Below, in pieces: positions 16,207 through 62,248 of a stretch of 64,000 nucleotides of DNA. Within the stretch, counting starts at the first letter, position 1, and the number at the start of each line of letters is the position of its first letter. Origin of the DNA: Planctomycetota bacterium (GTDB lineage Bacteria; Planctomycetota; Planctomycetia; Pirellulales; Pirellulaceae); the NCBI GenBank assembly GCA_026692865.1, contig JAPLNI010000058.1, positions 62,001 through 126,000 of the forward strand, written 5' to 3'. Position numbers and translations under genes: made by a program. The notes under the pieces are model-generated. The model made no database searches. It was not told the DNA's origin and was given only the letters and a program-made list of their open reading frames with translations.

Positions 16207-16735
16207 ATGAATTAGTAATCAATAGGGATCCACAAGCAACCTTTTACGTCAACATCATCCAGTGCTGAGCGACTCCTGATTATAGCCAAATCCCGATGAA
16301 GTCCACATGTCAAACTCTCATCGATTGACCTTATCTTCGTAAAGCGTCTTCTTATTTCTGGACCGCAAGAACTGTTGCTGCTTTGTGCGAACAGATGAAA
16401 ATTGTTTTAGTCTTGTGCCGAAGGTATAAGCCTCGGGTGCTACATGGCATACTGAGGCAATGTCGACACCCGTGGCAAGCGACATCGGTTCAGTTTTTCA
16501 TTTTCTCTCTCTTGGTGCGGTCCTAGTCGCTCGTGATTATCACTGAACGATTTGCGTCGACCCCACTTCTCGCTGCCAGAATCAGCGACTGCAAAGACCG
16601 CCGAAAATCCTCTCAATCGCTAAATTCAGCCTAATCGCTAAAGTCAACGCGGTCGATAAGTAGATTGTGTGTTTGCCGAAGCGGAATTTGCCTCTCGGCT
16701 GCACGCTTTGCCAGCAAATCAAAACGGAGCGCGAG
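16207..16735. other. Divergent intergenic region with one repeat element
   Basis: 529 bases between the TPR gene (minus) and the lipoprotein gene (plus). It holds one family B repeat (16429-16493, listed separately). Otherwise I see no convincing frame: the upstream extension of the lipoprotein frame to 16667 is not protein-like. No tRNA or other RNA fold was recognised. Confidence 0.5.
16429..16493. repeat. Family B repeat pair (REPIN-like)
   Basis: Left unit AGCCTCGGGTGCTAC (16429-16443) and right unit from 16468, ACCCGTGGCAAGCGACATCG ending GTTCAG. The right unit is a close variant of the reverse complement of the family B unit seen at 35090 and 59594. The left unit is like one of the variants at 53270. 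Together they give the inverted-pair layout of a REP doublet. Confidence 0.5.
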
Positions 16736-30703: not shown

Positions 30704-30730
30704 TAACCAGCTCGAACACTGACCTAATGT

Positions 30731-30777
30731 AACTTTAGCCGACTACGCTAGCCACGGGTTTTGATCCTGCTAAAGTT
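30731..30777. repeat. Family B repeat unit inside a 9-bp inverted repeat
   Basis: AACTTTAGC (30731-30739) and its exact reverse complement GCTAAAGTT (30769-30777) flank a core containing CTAGCCACGGGTTTTGA, the same block as in the copies at 35090 and 59594. It begins 28 bases after the stop of the lyase gene. A transcription-end hairpin is possible, though the T run is short. Confidence 0.5.
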
Positions 30778-30919
30778 TGAATGATTGTTTTGTGAATAAC
30801 TCCTACGACACAGGAAGAACCACATTTCCATCAGCTGGCGACTGATGGTCCTTGAACTTGATATACTTTTGCTTAAGATCAATTAGCACTGAGAACACTC
30901 CCATGGAAGGATTTTCATC

Positions 30920-35067: not shown

Positions 35068-35087
35068 CATCCTATAACATAAAAAAG

Positions 35088-35119
35088 ACTGAGCCGATGG
35101 CGCTAGCCACGAGTATTGA
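35088..35119. repeat. Family B repeat, single unit
   Basis: ACTGAGCCGATGGCGCTAGC followed by CACGAGTATTGA, 20 bases after the propeller gene stop. The first 20 bases are nearly identical to the left arm of the element translated inside the gene at 58748 (59594 onward). A clear inverted partner is not seen. Confidence 0.55.
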
Positions 35120-35237
35120 CGTCGCCACAGTTTGTCTAAGAACAGTCATGTTCACTTCATACAGGTTAGGCAAATTTACATTTCGATCAGGCCTGAATTG
35201 GATCTTGGCTTGAACCAGAGAGGTGTTTAGCAGCGAA

Positions 35238-53096: not shown

Positions 53097-53170
53097 CGGC
53101 TCAGTAATGGTCCTTGAATTAATAATGCTCCAACTGTATCGGTCGCTCGGCGAGTATTTAACGTTCTACT

Positions 53171-53338
53171 GCGGTTAGCGTTCGAGGCTCAATACACAAG
53201 GTGTTGAACCGCTGCTCTAGCCGCGTCATTGGACGGTCCTGCGCAAGCGGCTGGTTAACTGTTGTAACTCGGCTAGCACCAGAGGCTCAATACGTTAGGC
53301 GTTTAAACGTTTGCGTTAACGCCTCAGGCTCATAATAG
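53171..53338. repeat. Cluster of family B-like repeat units
   Basis: Three related units in the gap between two minus-strand GTPase genes: GCGGTTAGCGTTCGAGGCTC then AATAC at 53171-53195, CGGCTAGCACCAGAGGCTCA then ATAC at 53270-53293, and GCGTTAACGCCTCAGGCTCA then TAATAG at 53313-53338. The second is close to the reverse complement of the unit at 35090. Shared core AGGCTCA-AT. Units are about 100 and 43 bases apart. Confidence 0.5.
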
Positions 53339-58297: not shown

Positions 58298-58747
58298 ATC
58301 GTTCTCGATTTGATAGATCCGAAGATACATACCCTGGATGTAATCGGTAGACTTCACCCAACCTTCTCTATCGGAACAAAAGGTAACGAGGGCGGAAAAA
58401 TCAATCGTTCCCGTTAAGGATCACCCGAAGTTCGTGAACTCGTTGAATTACTCAATCTGCCTGTTCTCTCTGGACTCGCAGGGCAGTGAGAAGCTAAACG
58501 TATTGATATGCAAACAGTGACGGTGGACTTGCGAAAGCTGATCCGATGGTGCTAGACCAATGCCACCGAAGCTCGACACATCAGCCGCCTGGTGTCAGTC
58601 TGCGGTTAGTGAAAACGCAATAGAAACGGCACGCTGACGCGTGGCGGCTGATGAAATACCAATCAGTATCTAAAGCGAAAGCGGTTGAATGTAGAGGATG
58701 TTTATTAGCATGGATCGCGAGTGTTGCATTTTTCTCTGGAGCGAGTT
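58298..58747. other. Divergent intergenic region with one inverted repeat
   Basis: 450 bases between a secreted-protein gene (minus) and the modular exported protein gene (plus). Contains the family E inverted repeat (58579-58653) and a weak family B-like unit near 58540-58560 (GATCCGATGGTGCTAGAC). A GGAG ribosome-binding site lies at the right end, six bases before the GTG start at 58748. No gene recognised. Confidence 0.5.
58579..58653. repeat. Family E inverted repeat
   Basis: Left arm CATCAGCCGCCTGGTGTCAG and right arm CTGACGCGTGGCGGCTGATG are inverted copies: the outer 11 bases pair perfectly and the next bases partly. About 35 bases lie between them. The CATCAGCCGCC end is, from memory, a motif found repeatedly in planctomycete intergenic DNA. 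Upstream of the modular protein gene, so it could affect that transcript. Confidence 0.5.
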
Positions 58748-61700
58748 GTGAATCGGTTCCTTTCGTCCTTCGCCTTTGTGACTAGCATTCTGATAATCGG
58801 AACCGCTTGTGGTTTGGTGTTTGCGTCCGAATCTCGTGATGCATCCATCCATGCGTGTATAGCTGCTTCGGCAGATCGATGGTGGGCGATGGGAGATCGT
58901 GGGCAGGCGTTGCTATCCGAGAATGCAGGTCGCACTTGGACACAAGCAACTGTCGATGGAACGCCAAATTTCCACGCGGGAATCGCAATTGATGAACGAA
59001 ATGGTGTGGTCGTTGGTGGCACTATTCAACCCTACTCGCATCGAAGCGTAGGAGTTATTCAAACCACTCAAGACGGTGGTCGACGTTGGCGCGAGATTCC
59101 CAGCGAAGGCCTTCCAAGACTGACTGGTATTCAAAAGATAAGCGATCGGCACTGGATCGTTTGGGGAGATTGGTCGCCGAAATTTCACACAGGCTTGTTT
59201 GAGACTATCGACGGCGGAGCAACTTGGACTGGAAAAGAGCTCGCAGCTTCTCATATCCAAACGGCAGCTTGGAAAGATGCCTCCGACGGAATTGTAGTCG
59301 ATCGCCTTGGCCGAATTTTTCGCTTTGAAACTAGAAGGCCGCCGACGTTAATGCCGATCGGCGGGAACGCTTCGAACCGAATTCTTAAGGCCGCTTACAA
59401 TGATTCAGGCTGGTGGTTGATCGGTCAATCAGGGCAAATCTACCACAGTATCGACGGTCAAAAGTGGCTTCAAAAACGCTTGCCCGGAAATGAAACTGAT
59501 CAAGCACTTTTTCGGTTATCGGATATCGCTTTTCAGAAGCTGGATTCACCTGCGATTGCTTCGTCGCCGGCGGGATACCCAGTTCCAAAAAATCCTGAGC
59601 CGATGGCGCTAGCCACGGGTTTTGACGCTACCTATATTCACCAAAATTCACCCGAGGCTAGCACCTACGGTTCAGGATTAAAAGCCACGCATTCGATCCC
59701 GCGGAAACGCTGTTGGTTGGTTGGTAGCCCTGGAAGCGTGATTTGGACAAGCGACGATTTTGGTGACTCTTGGCAAACGCAAACGACATCTCAGTCGCTG
59801 CCATTGAACTCGATAGCATCAGTCGGGAACGATACGCTTTTCGCTGGTGGTGGTCTTGCAACAATCATTGGAACCAGGAACTCGGGGCAGGGATGGTGGA
59901 TCTTGATTCAGGAGGGATCGAGACTTGCCTTACTAAGTTTGACTGCGATTCAAGCAACGATTCCCTGGGATGCCCTATCGATAGTCGCACGTGAGTCGCG
60001 AGCACACGTGGGCGGGATCATCTTTCATAGCGAGCGCATCTACGAACGTGCTTCGCCTTGGTGCGACAGTGCGACTAGAGCAGCGACTCTTGCGAGCGAG
60101 CTTGGCATCTCGGGATTAGAAACGCTAAACCAATTTCCCGTGATGAGTAATTCAACAAATCGGCTTCGTGAGGAGTGCGCGATATATGATCCGAAGCTCC
60201 AGCAACCAAGCTTTGAAGGGTTGATCGACAGAATTGCAATCCAAGCGATCCGCCAATACCGACCGGACGTAATTGTCTGCGACAGCTTCAACGCAGAAGA
60301 CCCACTCACGCAGGCTGCTGCAAGAATGGTGGTAACGGCTCGCAATCGTGCAAGTGACAGTCGTTACGAGTGCTTCTCAAAAGAATCTGGGATTCCAAAT
60401 AAAGCATGGGACTGCAAGACTTTACTGGCTCGATCCATCTCAGATTCTCAGAACGAGCGTCGGCGCAGCGAACTCCAACTGACTTCAACGACTCCGGTGC
60501 ATCGCGAAGGAATTTTGCTCGGTGAATTACTTGTATCCGTCGGCGGTCAAATTACACAATCGGAAGAGTCTATTGCCAAGGTCGATTCGTATGGTGTTAG
60601 GGAAGATTCGATGCCACCGTGGGAGCAGTACGGTGAATATGCCGTGGTGTTCGGTGCAAAGCCAAGTGGCGGAAAGGGTAGCCTGCTGCCTGATGAAATT
60701 AGACAACCAGGAGCGATGAGACCAGCCGCATCGATCGATTCGCTTCGTTACCAGTCTTCGATAACCAACTTCCAACGCGAAAGCAATCTTCACAAGTTAA
60801 TCGACATGGAAGTCCAAAACGCCACACGCGATAGTCGATGGTTTGTCGCGCTCAACCAGCTTATCCATTCGACTTCCCACCCCGCGCGGTCTCAGACGCT
60901 ATGGACTATTGCTCAAGAATCGCGACGTCGTGGCCATTGGGATCGTTGGTCGAAATGCTTAGAGCTACTTATCGGAGATTATCCGAAGGAAGGGGCCGCG
61001 GAACTTGCTGCGATTCAGCAGTCAGCTTGGCAAGGGAGCAGCGAATTTCGACTTTGGCAGGCCCGGCTGACTCCTTCTAATGATTTGCAAACAACACACT
61101 CAAGCGTTGTTACCGCAAGCTATCAAGCCCGGGCCAGTTCAAGTCCTTTCGATACGCAGATTCACGATAGCGCAATCGCTAAAAATGCAACCACGCGTTC
61201 GCCAGATGCGCGATCTCCCTCACGATTGACACTCCAATCACAAACTGCAACTCGAAGTGTAAACCCGGTTACCCCAGTTCTAACTGCCACGGTCAGCGAG
61301 ACTAAGCATCCGCAGTCATTTGCCGAGCCATTAAATGAAAGCCAAGCGACGCGTTTCTCAAGTATGACTTCTATAGCGAGAGTCAACGTCGAAGATGACC
61401 CTCGGAGAGTTTTACTTGCCTTAGCCTCGCGAGCTGATTCAACAACGAATTGGGCTGGAATTTATGGTTGGTCCCATTTGGCTGACCAAGAATTTATGCT
61501 TCGTTCCGGAACAGCAACTGAAAAAAGATTTACGACTTCCCCGAACGAACGTTCTCAATCACCTATGTCACGTCACACCTCGTCAGATGTACTGAGAGTT
61601 CCGAATTCTAAGTTCCGGCCTATCTTGGACGGGTCGCTTGGCGACGATGTCTGGAAGGAAGCTTACCAGGTCGATCTCCAATCAGTTCAAGCAACACTGC

Positions 61701-62248
61701 GACTCAATCAATTGTCAGACGCGAACAAAACGGTCGTTAACTTGATCCGTGACAGCCGATTTTTGTACGTTTCTGGATCGTGCATTGATCGGCAACGCAC
61801 GGCCGAGAGAACCTCTCCCTTTGGCGAATTCTCTCATCAAAAACCAGAAGGCAGAACCCATGACAAACCAACGATCGGTTCTGATCGATTCACCCTGCGG
61901 ATTGATACAGATCGAGACTTTCTAACGTGGTTTCAATTCACGATTGATTCGCAAGGAAACCTCACCGACTCGCTCAACGATATGGGATCTTGGGATCCAC
62001 GATGGTATGTAGCTACAGCTCGAACTGTATCGGGATGGGCTTTCGAGCTGGCGATTCCTTTGAATGAGCTTTCTGATGAAGATTTCATGAAAAACGCGAA
62101 TTCTCAAGCTTCCGCTGGCGATTCCGTAACTCTCTGGAATTTTGCAATGTGCCGCACGATGCCGGGACACGCGGTCCAGTATGCAAAGCCATTGATGACG
62201 GATGGACTGTCGCATGCGAGCTGGATACCAGGAATCATCCAGCGATAG
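58748..62248 (+). CDS. Large modular exported protein: propeller, PIG-L-like segment, CBM9-like domain
   Basis: 1166 residues from the GTG at 58748, chosen because a GGAG lies six bases upstream and a signal peptide (NRFLSSFAFVTSILIIGTAC) follows; the frame is open to a GTG at 58721. Residues about 35-375 carry BNR/Ycf48-like blades (TTQDGGRRWREIP, ETIDGGATWTGKEL, WTSDDFGDSWQTQ). Residues about 390-560 resemble a degenerate PIG-L-like region (IAIQAIRQYRPDVIVCDS). A helical and Ser/Thr-rich linker follows. The last 210 residues (PILDGSLGDDVWKEAYQVDL, SDRFTLRIDTDRDFLTWFQF) fit a CBM9-like sugar-binding domain. Residues 283-310 come from a repeat element (59594-59676). Function unknown. Confidence 0.75.
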   Translation: MNRFLSSFAFVTSILIIGTACGLVFASESRDASIHACIAASADRWWAMGDRGQALLSENAGRTWTQATVDGTPNFHAGIAIDERNGVVVGGTIQPYSHRSVGVIQTTQDGGRRWREIPSEGLPRLTGIQKISDRHWIVWGDWSPKFHTGLFETIDGGATWTGKELAASHIQTAAWKDASDGIVVDRLGRIFRFETRRPPTLMPIGGNASNRILKAAYNDSGWWLIGQSGQIYHSIDGQKWLQKRLPGNETDQALFRLSDIAFQKLDSPAIASSPAGYPVPKNPEPMALATGFDATYIHQNSPEASTYGSGLKATHSIPRKRCWLVGSPGSVIWTSDDFGDSWQTQTTSQSLPLNSIASVGNDTLFAGGGLATIIGTRNSGQGWWILIQEGSRLALLSLTAIQATIPWDALSIVARESRAHVGGIIFHSERIYERASPWCDSATRAATLASELGISGLETLNQFPVMSNSTNRLREECAIYDPKLQQPSFEGLIDRIAIQAIRQYRPDVIVCDSFNAEDPLTQAAARMVVTARNRASDSRYECFSKESGIPNKAWDCKTLLARSISDSQNERRRSELQLTSTTPVHREGILLGELLVSVGGQITQSEESIAKVDSYGVREDSMPPWEQYGEYAVVFGAKPSGGKGSLLPDEIRQPGAMRPAASIDSLRYQSSITNFQRESNLHKLIDMEVQNATRDSRWFVALNQLIHSTSHPARSQTLWTIAQESRRRGHWDRWSKCLELLIGDYPKEGAAELAAIQQSAWQGSSEFRLWQARLTPSNDLQTTHSSVVTASYQARASSSPFDTQIHDSAIAKNATTRSPDARSPSRLTLQSQTATRSVNPVTPVLTATVSETKHPQSFAEPLNESQATRFSSMTSIARVNVEDDPRRVLLALASRADSTTNWAGIYGWSHLADQEFMLRSGTATEKRFTTSPNERSQSPMSRHTSSDVLRVPNSKFRPILDGSLGDDVWKEAYQVDLQSVQATLRLNQLSDANKTVVNLIRDSRFLYVSGSCIDRQRTAERTSPFGEFSHQKPEGRTHDKPTIGSDRFTLRIDTDRDFLTWFQFTIDSQGNLTDSLNDMGSWDPRWYVATARTVSGWAFELAIPLNELSDEDFMKNANSQASAGDSVTLWNFAMCRTMPGHAVQYAKPLMTDGLSHASWIPGIIQR
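59594..59676. repeat. Family B repeat pair translated inside a gene
   Basis: An 83-bp element with inverted ends: CCTGAGCCGATGGCGCTAGC then CACGGG at the left, and CCCGAGGCTAGCACCTACGG then TTCAGG at the right. About 20 of 26 arm positions pair. The left arm matches the intergenic unit at 35090 almost exactly. It lies wholly within the modular protein gene and is read in frame without a stop as PEPMALATGFDATYIHQ and on to STYGSG. Confidence 0.75.

Follow-up and report, generated by a model that had tools for sequence, protein, structure and literature searches.

How a palindromic DNA repeat comes to be read as part of a protein is the question raised by one gene in the window, the whole stretch of 64,000 nucleotides of planctomycete DNA that was analyzed. 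An initial annotation had described, inside this gene, an 83-bp element with inverted ends that is otherwise found between genes and that adds about 28 residues without breaking the frame. The inverted repeat is real: its arms (59591-59620 and 59650-59679) are 83% complementary and lie within an uninterrupted open reading frame (ORF) of 1175 amino acids. However, the 83-bp palindrome is only the core of a mobile unit of about 120 bp, and the insert amounts to about 42 residues (Table 1). The limits of this focal element are approximate, since its outer ends have decayed, and a target duplication is not recognizable around it. The answer that we favor, with a probability of roughly 0.85, is that it is a non-autonomous, MITE-like element of about 120 bp, carrying REP arms of the class-3 RAYT type, which is tolerated within genes as a translated passenger.

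Table 1. Positions of the host ORF, the focal element and its parts, and the other copies in the window
Feature	Positions	Strand	Basis or remark
Host ORF, 1175 amino acids, uninterrupted	58721..62248	+	ORF list
Whole focal inserted element	59581..59705	+	Alignment to 120-bp consensus; residues ~287-328
Match of the sequence-only element model (R1), focal copy	59586-59688	+	E = 2.4e-25
Left REP-like arm, CTGAGCCGATGGCGCTAGCCACGGGT	59595..59620	+	Hairpin CCG-TGGC-GCTA-GCCA-CGG with bulged A; encodes EPMALATG
Loop of 29 nt separating the focal arms	59621..59649	+	Sequence; family loop lengths
Right REP-like arm, inverted	59650..59675	-	Plus strand encodes PEASTYGS
Second copy, left arm nearly intact, right arm decayed	35081..35191	+	R1 model, E = 3e-13
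Third copy, decayed	30724..30834	+	R1 model, E = 8e-12
Fourth copy	16393..16499	-	R1 model, E = 1e-19

The host ORF has a PSII_BNR match barely above the cut-off and, below threshold, one to sortilin (propeller type), and its N terminus, judged by eye, is probably a signal peptide. The focal peptide is missing from all 23 homologues outside the genus that could be assessed (5 of 28 could not); one of the 23, L056, has a shorter, different extra stretch. The insertion is present in the sister species too, with a decayed repeat. The genome of this sister (G001), Planctomycetaceae bacterium H1_MAG_00040, was assembled from a pond metagenome; the window's own genome (G000) comprises 5.55 Mb in 72 contigs. 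In the homologue alignment, the insert is flanked by an LSDIAF stretch and by CWLVGSPGSV. We would take these stretches for two strands of a single blade, in place of the position between two blades that had been proposed. A structure model of the propeller, built from a two-sequence alignment, had a mean pLDDT of 37.8 and was not used.

Across the family, the element of about 120 bp consists of outer inverted ends, two inverted 26-nt REP-like hairpin arms and a loop of mostly 29 nt. Better-kept copies have terminal inverted repeats (TIRs) of about 13 bp (TGGGCTGATGAAA and TTTTCATCAGCCCA). The consensus folds into one long hairpin with an energy of -42.4 kcal/mol, compared with -16.1 kcal/mol for shuffled sequences (z = -11.0), and the focal copy retains -25.9 kcal/mol (z = -5.9). 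A single left arm folds better than its own shuffles (z = -3.3), and the right arm does so less clearly (z = -1.7). The stem CCG-x-NNNN-GCTA-NNNN-CGG fits 37 of the 44 arms searched in nine genomes, with a fit defined as at least 5 of 7 pairs retained. Double changes occur at several pairs (for example, A-T/C-G/T-A), and the first base of the foot differs among genera. When positions 59400-59900 were searched against Rfam, only microRNA-precursor matches far below the cut-offs were obtained (best, 26.6 of 99 bits), which we took as generic hairpin matches. Read in all six frames, the consensus is free of stops in just one; this frame reads GLMKPEPMALATGFDFATICQIAPEASAYGSGKMPFSSA (PEPMALATG…PEASAYGSG), and EPMALATG and PEASAYGSG are its best-kept parts. 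Two of the five closed frames hold one stop each. One copy (L128; G000 C26:211033-211173) carries an internal triplication of ACCCGAGGCTAGC.

Within the window, the 21-base core of the left arm has four matches at up to three mismatches, where 0.00 are expected. The R1 model at E ≤ 1 recovered the focal element and the copies near 35088, 16429 and 30731 that had been named at the outset, and its other three matches are reverse-strand readings of these four palindromes. A further place named as a copy, 53171, gave no R1 match at E ≤ 1 and, its sequence having been inspected as well, was rejected as a family member. Positions 53170-53300 hold GAGGCTCAATAC twice, about 100 bp apart, outside this element family.

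The recurrence of the arm extends to the whole genome. The arm core GATGGCGCTAGCCACGGGT occurs 188 times in G000 at up to two mismatches, compared with no occurrences of the reversed control. The 82-bp core has at least 49 matches there (best 40 of 219 candidates scored) and the R1 model at least 161 at E ≤ 0.01 (best 150 of 1940 candidates scored). The 150 R1 matches listed correspond to 143 places once overlapping duplicates are merged, and 142 of these were examined with their flanks. In a survey of 60 genomes (the window's own, one sister and otherwise one per genus; best 60 candidates each, stricter filters), matches were found in 10: G000, the sister, which had 61, and members of eight further genera of the family, which scored lower. 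Among the best 60 candidates from each of 23 genomes of other families of the order, there was no model match. The arms are shared by 22 loci from the eight other genera, in which no outer ends were seen by eye. At one such locus (L219; G044 C1:4600998-4601070), an arm pair is open in frame, with 230 codons before it and 499 after; in-gene arm pairs may thus extend beyond the window's genus.

The ends of the element bear a signature of insertion. The flanks of a copy resemble each other only across the 9 bp just outside the 120-bp ends, where likeness is 0.45, compared with 0.28 for shuffled flanks (z = 12.9; n = 117 copies); all other lengths from 3 to 15 at that offset give z ≤ 2.7. With the copies divided by end quality and length (those with cut flanks dropped), the signal peaks among the 54 copies whose outer ends are well preserved (0.58; z = 13.6) and is weaker among decayed ones (z = 3.6 and 2.1). 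Copies within genes carry it as well (0.38; z = 4.8; n = 41). The 40 copies longer than 122 bp lack it (z = 0.5) and may be a part of the family that spread otherwise or may be misaligned. Because the unit measures 120 bp and the duplication 9 bp, one insertion adds 129 bp, or 43 codons. This is what the sister species displays at two loci. In a YbgK/CT_A_B-type gene, the G000 element has GTCCGAGTC on both sides, a perfect 9-bp duplication, and the G001 gene has GTCCGAGTC once and no element. A gene for an AMP-binding enzyme is likewise interrupted in G000 and empty in G001, with no clear duplication left around the G000 copy (CGCTAAGCC and GCCCAAGTC). Both empty-site alignments differ by a 129-bp gap.

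These observations bear on the alternative that the element is a REPIN spread by a Y1 (RAYT) transposase via single-stranded DNA; the outer ends would then simply belong to the hairpin, and the 9-bp repeats would reflect repair or target preference. No target duplication is known for Y1 transposition, and the duplication here is fixed at 9 bp, gives a signal that tracks the quality of the outer ends and is represented by one copy of the 9 bp at the sister's empty site. What such a route would accommodate are the copies of more than 122 bp without a duplication signal, the excess of arm cores (188) over listed full elements and the arms without outer ends in other genera. The arms themselves also speak for a Y1 enzyme. 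Their foot in G000 is CTGA and their opposite end GGGT, and CTGA agrees with the CnGA foot that the available text of PMC6006769 gives for class-3 TnpA_Y1 (RAYT) genes, found mainly in planctomycetes, acidobacteria and proteobacteria. An unpaired GTAG or CGTC was not found at the hairpin end of the arms. On balance, we consider spread by a Y1 enzyme an unlikely origin of the copies.

Five Y1_Tnp loci are present in G000. The gene at L063 (C24) contains NHVH, W-T-A (WTA) and Y-x4-Q (YVIDCQ), motifs by which it would be a class-3-like TnpA_Y1 gene, and it is flanked by three copies of the arm, the only one of the five loci to be so. At L064 the arms lie about 1.3 kb or more from the match, and at the other three loci there are none within the approximately 3.3 kb examined. 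Positions 1242-1946 of L063 hold three arm copies in direct orientation, behind which comes a different sequence (GACACACGGCGATTGAAA or GCCACACGGCGATCGAAA, with GGGGGGAACCC further on), a layout like that of a REPtron with a second type of arm pair. Searches for a parental insertion sequence yielded nothing usable: exact TIR searches gave 19 matches, 2 of them off the listed copies (one decayed copy and one lone match within an ORF), and none of six DDE_Tnp_1 (PF01609) loci has a TIR within two mismatches. We would regard the element as a pair of REPs enclosed in a MITE.

The MITE-like element is far from confined to intergenic DNA, contrary to what had been supposed. Genome-wide, 41 of the 142 examined copies lie inside 40 ORFs, in a single orientation and frame. 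A copy was counted as genic when the ORF ran for at least 40 codons on each side; copies closer than this to an ORF end were excluded, and the figure of 41 is inexact. That genic copies are always in one frame is partly by construction, since the other five consensus frames hold stops. In one extra case, an opposite-strand ORF runs across one of the 41 places. The coding score reaches at least 0.08 per codon on both sides of 34 of the 41 copies and is weak on at least one side of the other 7 (60-codon windows of the training genes have an in-frame 5% point of 0.07 and median of 0.23 and an off-frame median of -0.01 and 95% point of 0.16). At one of these seven, C38:22889, the opposite strand has a better ORF that overlaps. 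Loop lengths equal 29 + 3n in all 26 genic copies listed individually; the genic loops outside that list are 7 of one group and 8 of group A, in a rough sorting. Three copies with a 129-bp period, that of the element plus its duplication, stand at C45:9427-9792, two of them in one ORF with a weak coding score. At L122 (G000 C26:54207 and 55761), neighboring RND pump and HlyD-type genes have one in-frame copy each.

All 41 genic copies are stop-free, 36 of them in frame to the end by alignment. Of the other 101, 67 are stop-free in that frame (47 in frame to the end) and 34 have stops, a contrast that is partly circular because an open frame defined the genic copies. An insert excised once transcribed or bypassed during translation, as happens with IStrons and byp elements, would never appear in the protein. 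Its strong hairpin would suit such a fate, as would an insertion in an inositol monophosphatase (IMPase) gene directly behind the GEE motif, which we take to be a metal-binding site. Yet an open frame would then be unneeded, and eight in-gene copies shared with the sister are stop-free in both species; the stops in 34 of 101 other copies point the same way, within the partial circularity of a G000-only contrast. We give removal or skipping hardly any credence.

The domains of the host proteins are unrelated. Pfam families were found at E ≤ 0.001 in 32 of 38 host ORFs, 30 of them above the curated cut-off (the focal ORF was scanned separately and L158:4048 left out). Inserts lie inside or between conserved parts of the IMPase, the AMP-binding enzyme, an amidohydrolase and a carboxyltransferase A/B protein. 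Further hosts are an RND pump, a TilS-like PP-loop enzyme, a SpoU methylase, an M24 peptidase, an HrpB-type helicase, a glycosyltransferase and planctomycete PSCyt/PSD proteins, among others; they are cytosolic, membrane and probably exported proteins. In comparisons with solved structures, six of eight host proteins could be aligned both before and after the insert, and the net gains were 58 residues (IMPase), 43 (ZneA/CusA pump), 48 (TilS), 55 (YbgK), 35 (aminopeptidase P) and, with a weak upstream anchor, 32 (TrmH type). For the AMP-binding protein (L132) the alignment begins downstream of the insert, and the aminotransferase L098 has no solved-structure match at the strict threshold of 1e-60. 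Of 24 relatives of the IMPase, 23 cover the site and all of these lack the insert, and the best match in G001, at 39% identity, is no close orthologue. The copy in a DNA polymerase I gene (L127) occupies residues 50-92, ahead of the first Pfam domain, and may lie upstream of the true start. At L127:3848-4228 (G000 C26:202865-203233), three copies stand head to tail with a 130-bp period.

The age of the insertions and the selection on them were assessed by comparing G000 with 41 G001 loci (40 of its 61 matches plus the focal orthologue). At 12 of the 40, the element is open within an ORF with 40 codons on both sides. Twenty-five G000 copies have the element at the corresponding place in G001, of which 9 are genic (one being the doubtful C38:22889) and 16 other, and the aligned DNA flanking shared copies differs by 11-22% between the two species. 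In eight shared in-gene insertions with usable alignments, the peptide has no stops in either species and has a dN/dS of 0.82 (bootstrap over genes, 0.57-1.14), compared with 0.10 (0.08-0.12) for the remainder of the same genes; the 20 codons flanking the insert on each side give 0.11 (0.06-0.18). A first, wider set that included L158 gave 0.91 for the peptide and 0.10 for the rest. The peptide is thus near-neutral in these eight insertions, while the host protein is under strong purifying selection. At L190, one of the eight, the sister reading has a stop at residue 9, 33 residues upstream of the insert (42-81), and therefore the start and the translation of the insert are uncertain. Two observations count against a purely neutral account: dS is 0.29 within inserts versus 0.76 in hosts, and divergence is 0.06-0.16 in the arms but about 0.21 in the loop. 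Ascertainment through the arms may explain part of this, and gene conversion or constraint on the DNA may contribute.

The same measurements weigh on the idea that the peptide is a functional motif, such as a linker, sorting tag or binding site, selected in many proteins, with the DNA similarity being secondary. Co-location of 25 copies in two species whose flanks differ by 11-22% would be expected of such a motif, and so would the superior preservation of EPMALATG and PEASAYGSG. But the bootstrap interval of the peptide's dN/dS includes 1, 101 of 142 copies lie outside such ORFs (34 with stops in that frame), the hosts' domains are unrelated and the hosts themselves cytosolic, membrane and probably exported, and the sister has empty sites. 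A selected motif is, in our judgment, very improbable.

The favored reading runs as follows. The element inserts with a 9-bp target duplication, adding 129 bp or 43 codons, and, having one stop-free frame, survives within genes in a single orientation and phase, to the extent observed. The insert would be translated, probably as a flexible loop, and be tolerated as a passenger; in the eight shared insertions it drifts near-neutrally in a constrained host. The inverted ends and the duplication suggest that a DDE-type transposase acting in trans moves the element. A more far-reaching proposal, which is doubtful, is that a DDE-mobilized MITE captured a class-3 RAYT REP pair and became a protein-compatible transposon, able to live in and between genes, through which drifting loops would have been entering the proteome of the genus since before the two species split, some loop types being mostly in genes. 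It draws on the 43-codon unit, the single open frame and the abundance of proline and small residues in the peptide. As a whole, the observation in the initial annotation is partly confirmed and proves larger than first described, and its interpretation is supported: the likeness to Rickettsia holds in how the element appears to work, being palindromic and in frame in many unrelated genes.

In-frame palindromic repeats in proteins are best known from Rickettsia, a reduced intracellular genus. To our knowledge, the route by which they entered proteins there had remained open. Here, a planctomycete with a 5.5-Mb genome, with a sister from a pond, has in-frame insertion at a similar scale, together with a transposition signature (inverted ends, 9-bp duplication and empty sites in the sister) and a direct measure of near-neutrality for the inserted peptide. 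The copies amount to dozens of natural insertion experiments that bear on which sites in a protein can accommodate a 43-residue loop; several concern enzymes whose structure is known. In-frame palindromic insertion as such was already known; what is new is a different element, another phylum and a documented insertion signature. The suggestion that this had not been described for planctomycetes stands insofar as no title or abstract beginning in the open-licence literature on planctomycete repeats and palindromic repeats in proteins describes this element, and it is tempered by the intragenic REPs of Opitutus terrae, of the same superphylum, in the accessible part of PMC3733652.

Four known systems invite comparison. 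Bacterial MITEs are likewise short, with TIRs and target site duplications (TSDs), and are mobilized in trans, as the planctomycete element probably is; in-frame fusions are known for several, Rickettsia palindromic elements (RPEs) foremost, according to the MITE review PMC10969869. Unlike them, the planctomycete element has REP arms and many in-frame gene insertions, and no parental insertion sequence was found by exact TIR or at the six DDE_Tnp_1 loci. With the REPs of class-3 TnpA_Y1 genes it shares the CnGA foot, high copy number, occurrence in planctomycetes and a class-3-like gene flanked by arms. The available text of PMC6006769 describes in-frame REP insertion in tnpA genes of subclass 2.4 and cites insertions in unrelated genes; for class 3, that text describes neither in-frame insertion nor a TSD-bearing composite, both of which are seen here. 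The GTAG/CGTC REPs are single or paired hairpins in ORFs, with the frame kept, including genes for DNA synthesis and repair, and their intragenic copies are most numerous in O. terrae and Rickettsia conorii (PMC3733652, accessible part). They resemble the planctomycete element as in-frame hairpins within ORFs, and O. terrae belongs to the PVC superphylum, but the element described here has no unpaired tag and is a larger unit with outer inverted ends and a TSD. In behavior the element is like the RPEs, palindromes of about 150 bp, nearly half of which are in frame in unrelated R. conorii genes and each of which has an ORF for a conserved peptide, as the same review (PMC10969869) states. Compared by description and behavior, the planctomycete element resembles them in being palindromic and in sitting, with the frame preserved, within many unrelated genes (41 of the 142 copies examined, spread over 40 ORFs), and it differs in belonging to another phylum and in displaying TIRs, a 9-bp TSD, empty sites and REP-type arms.
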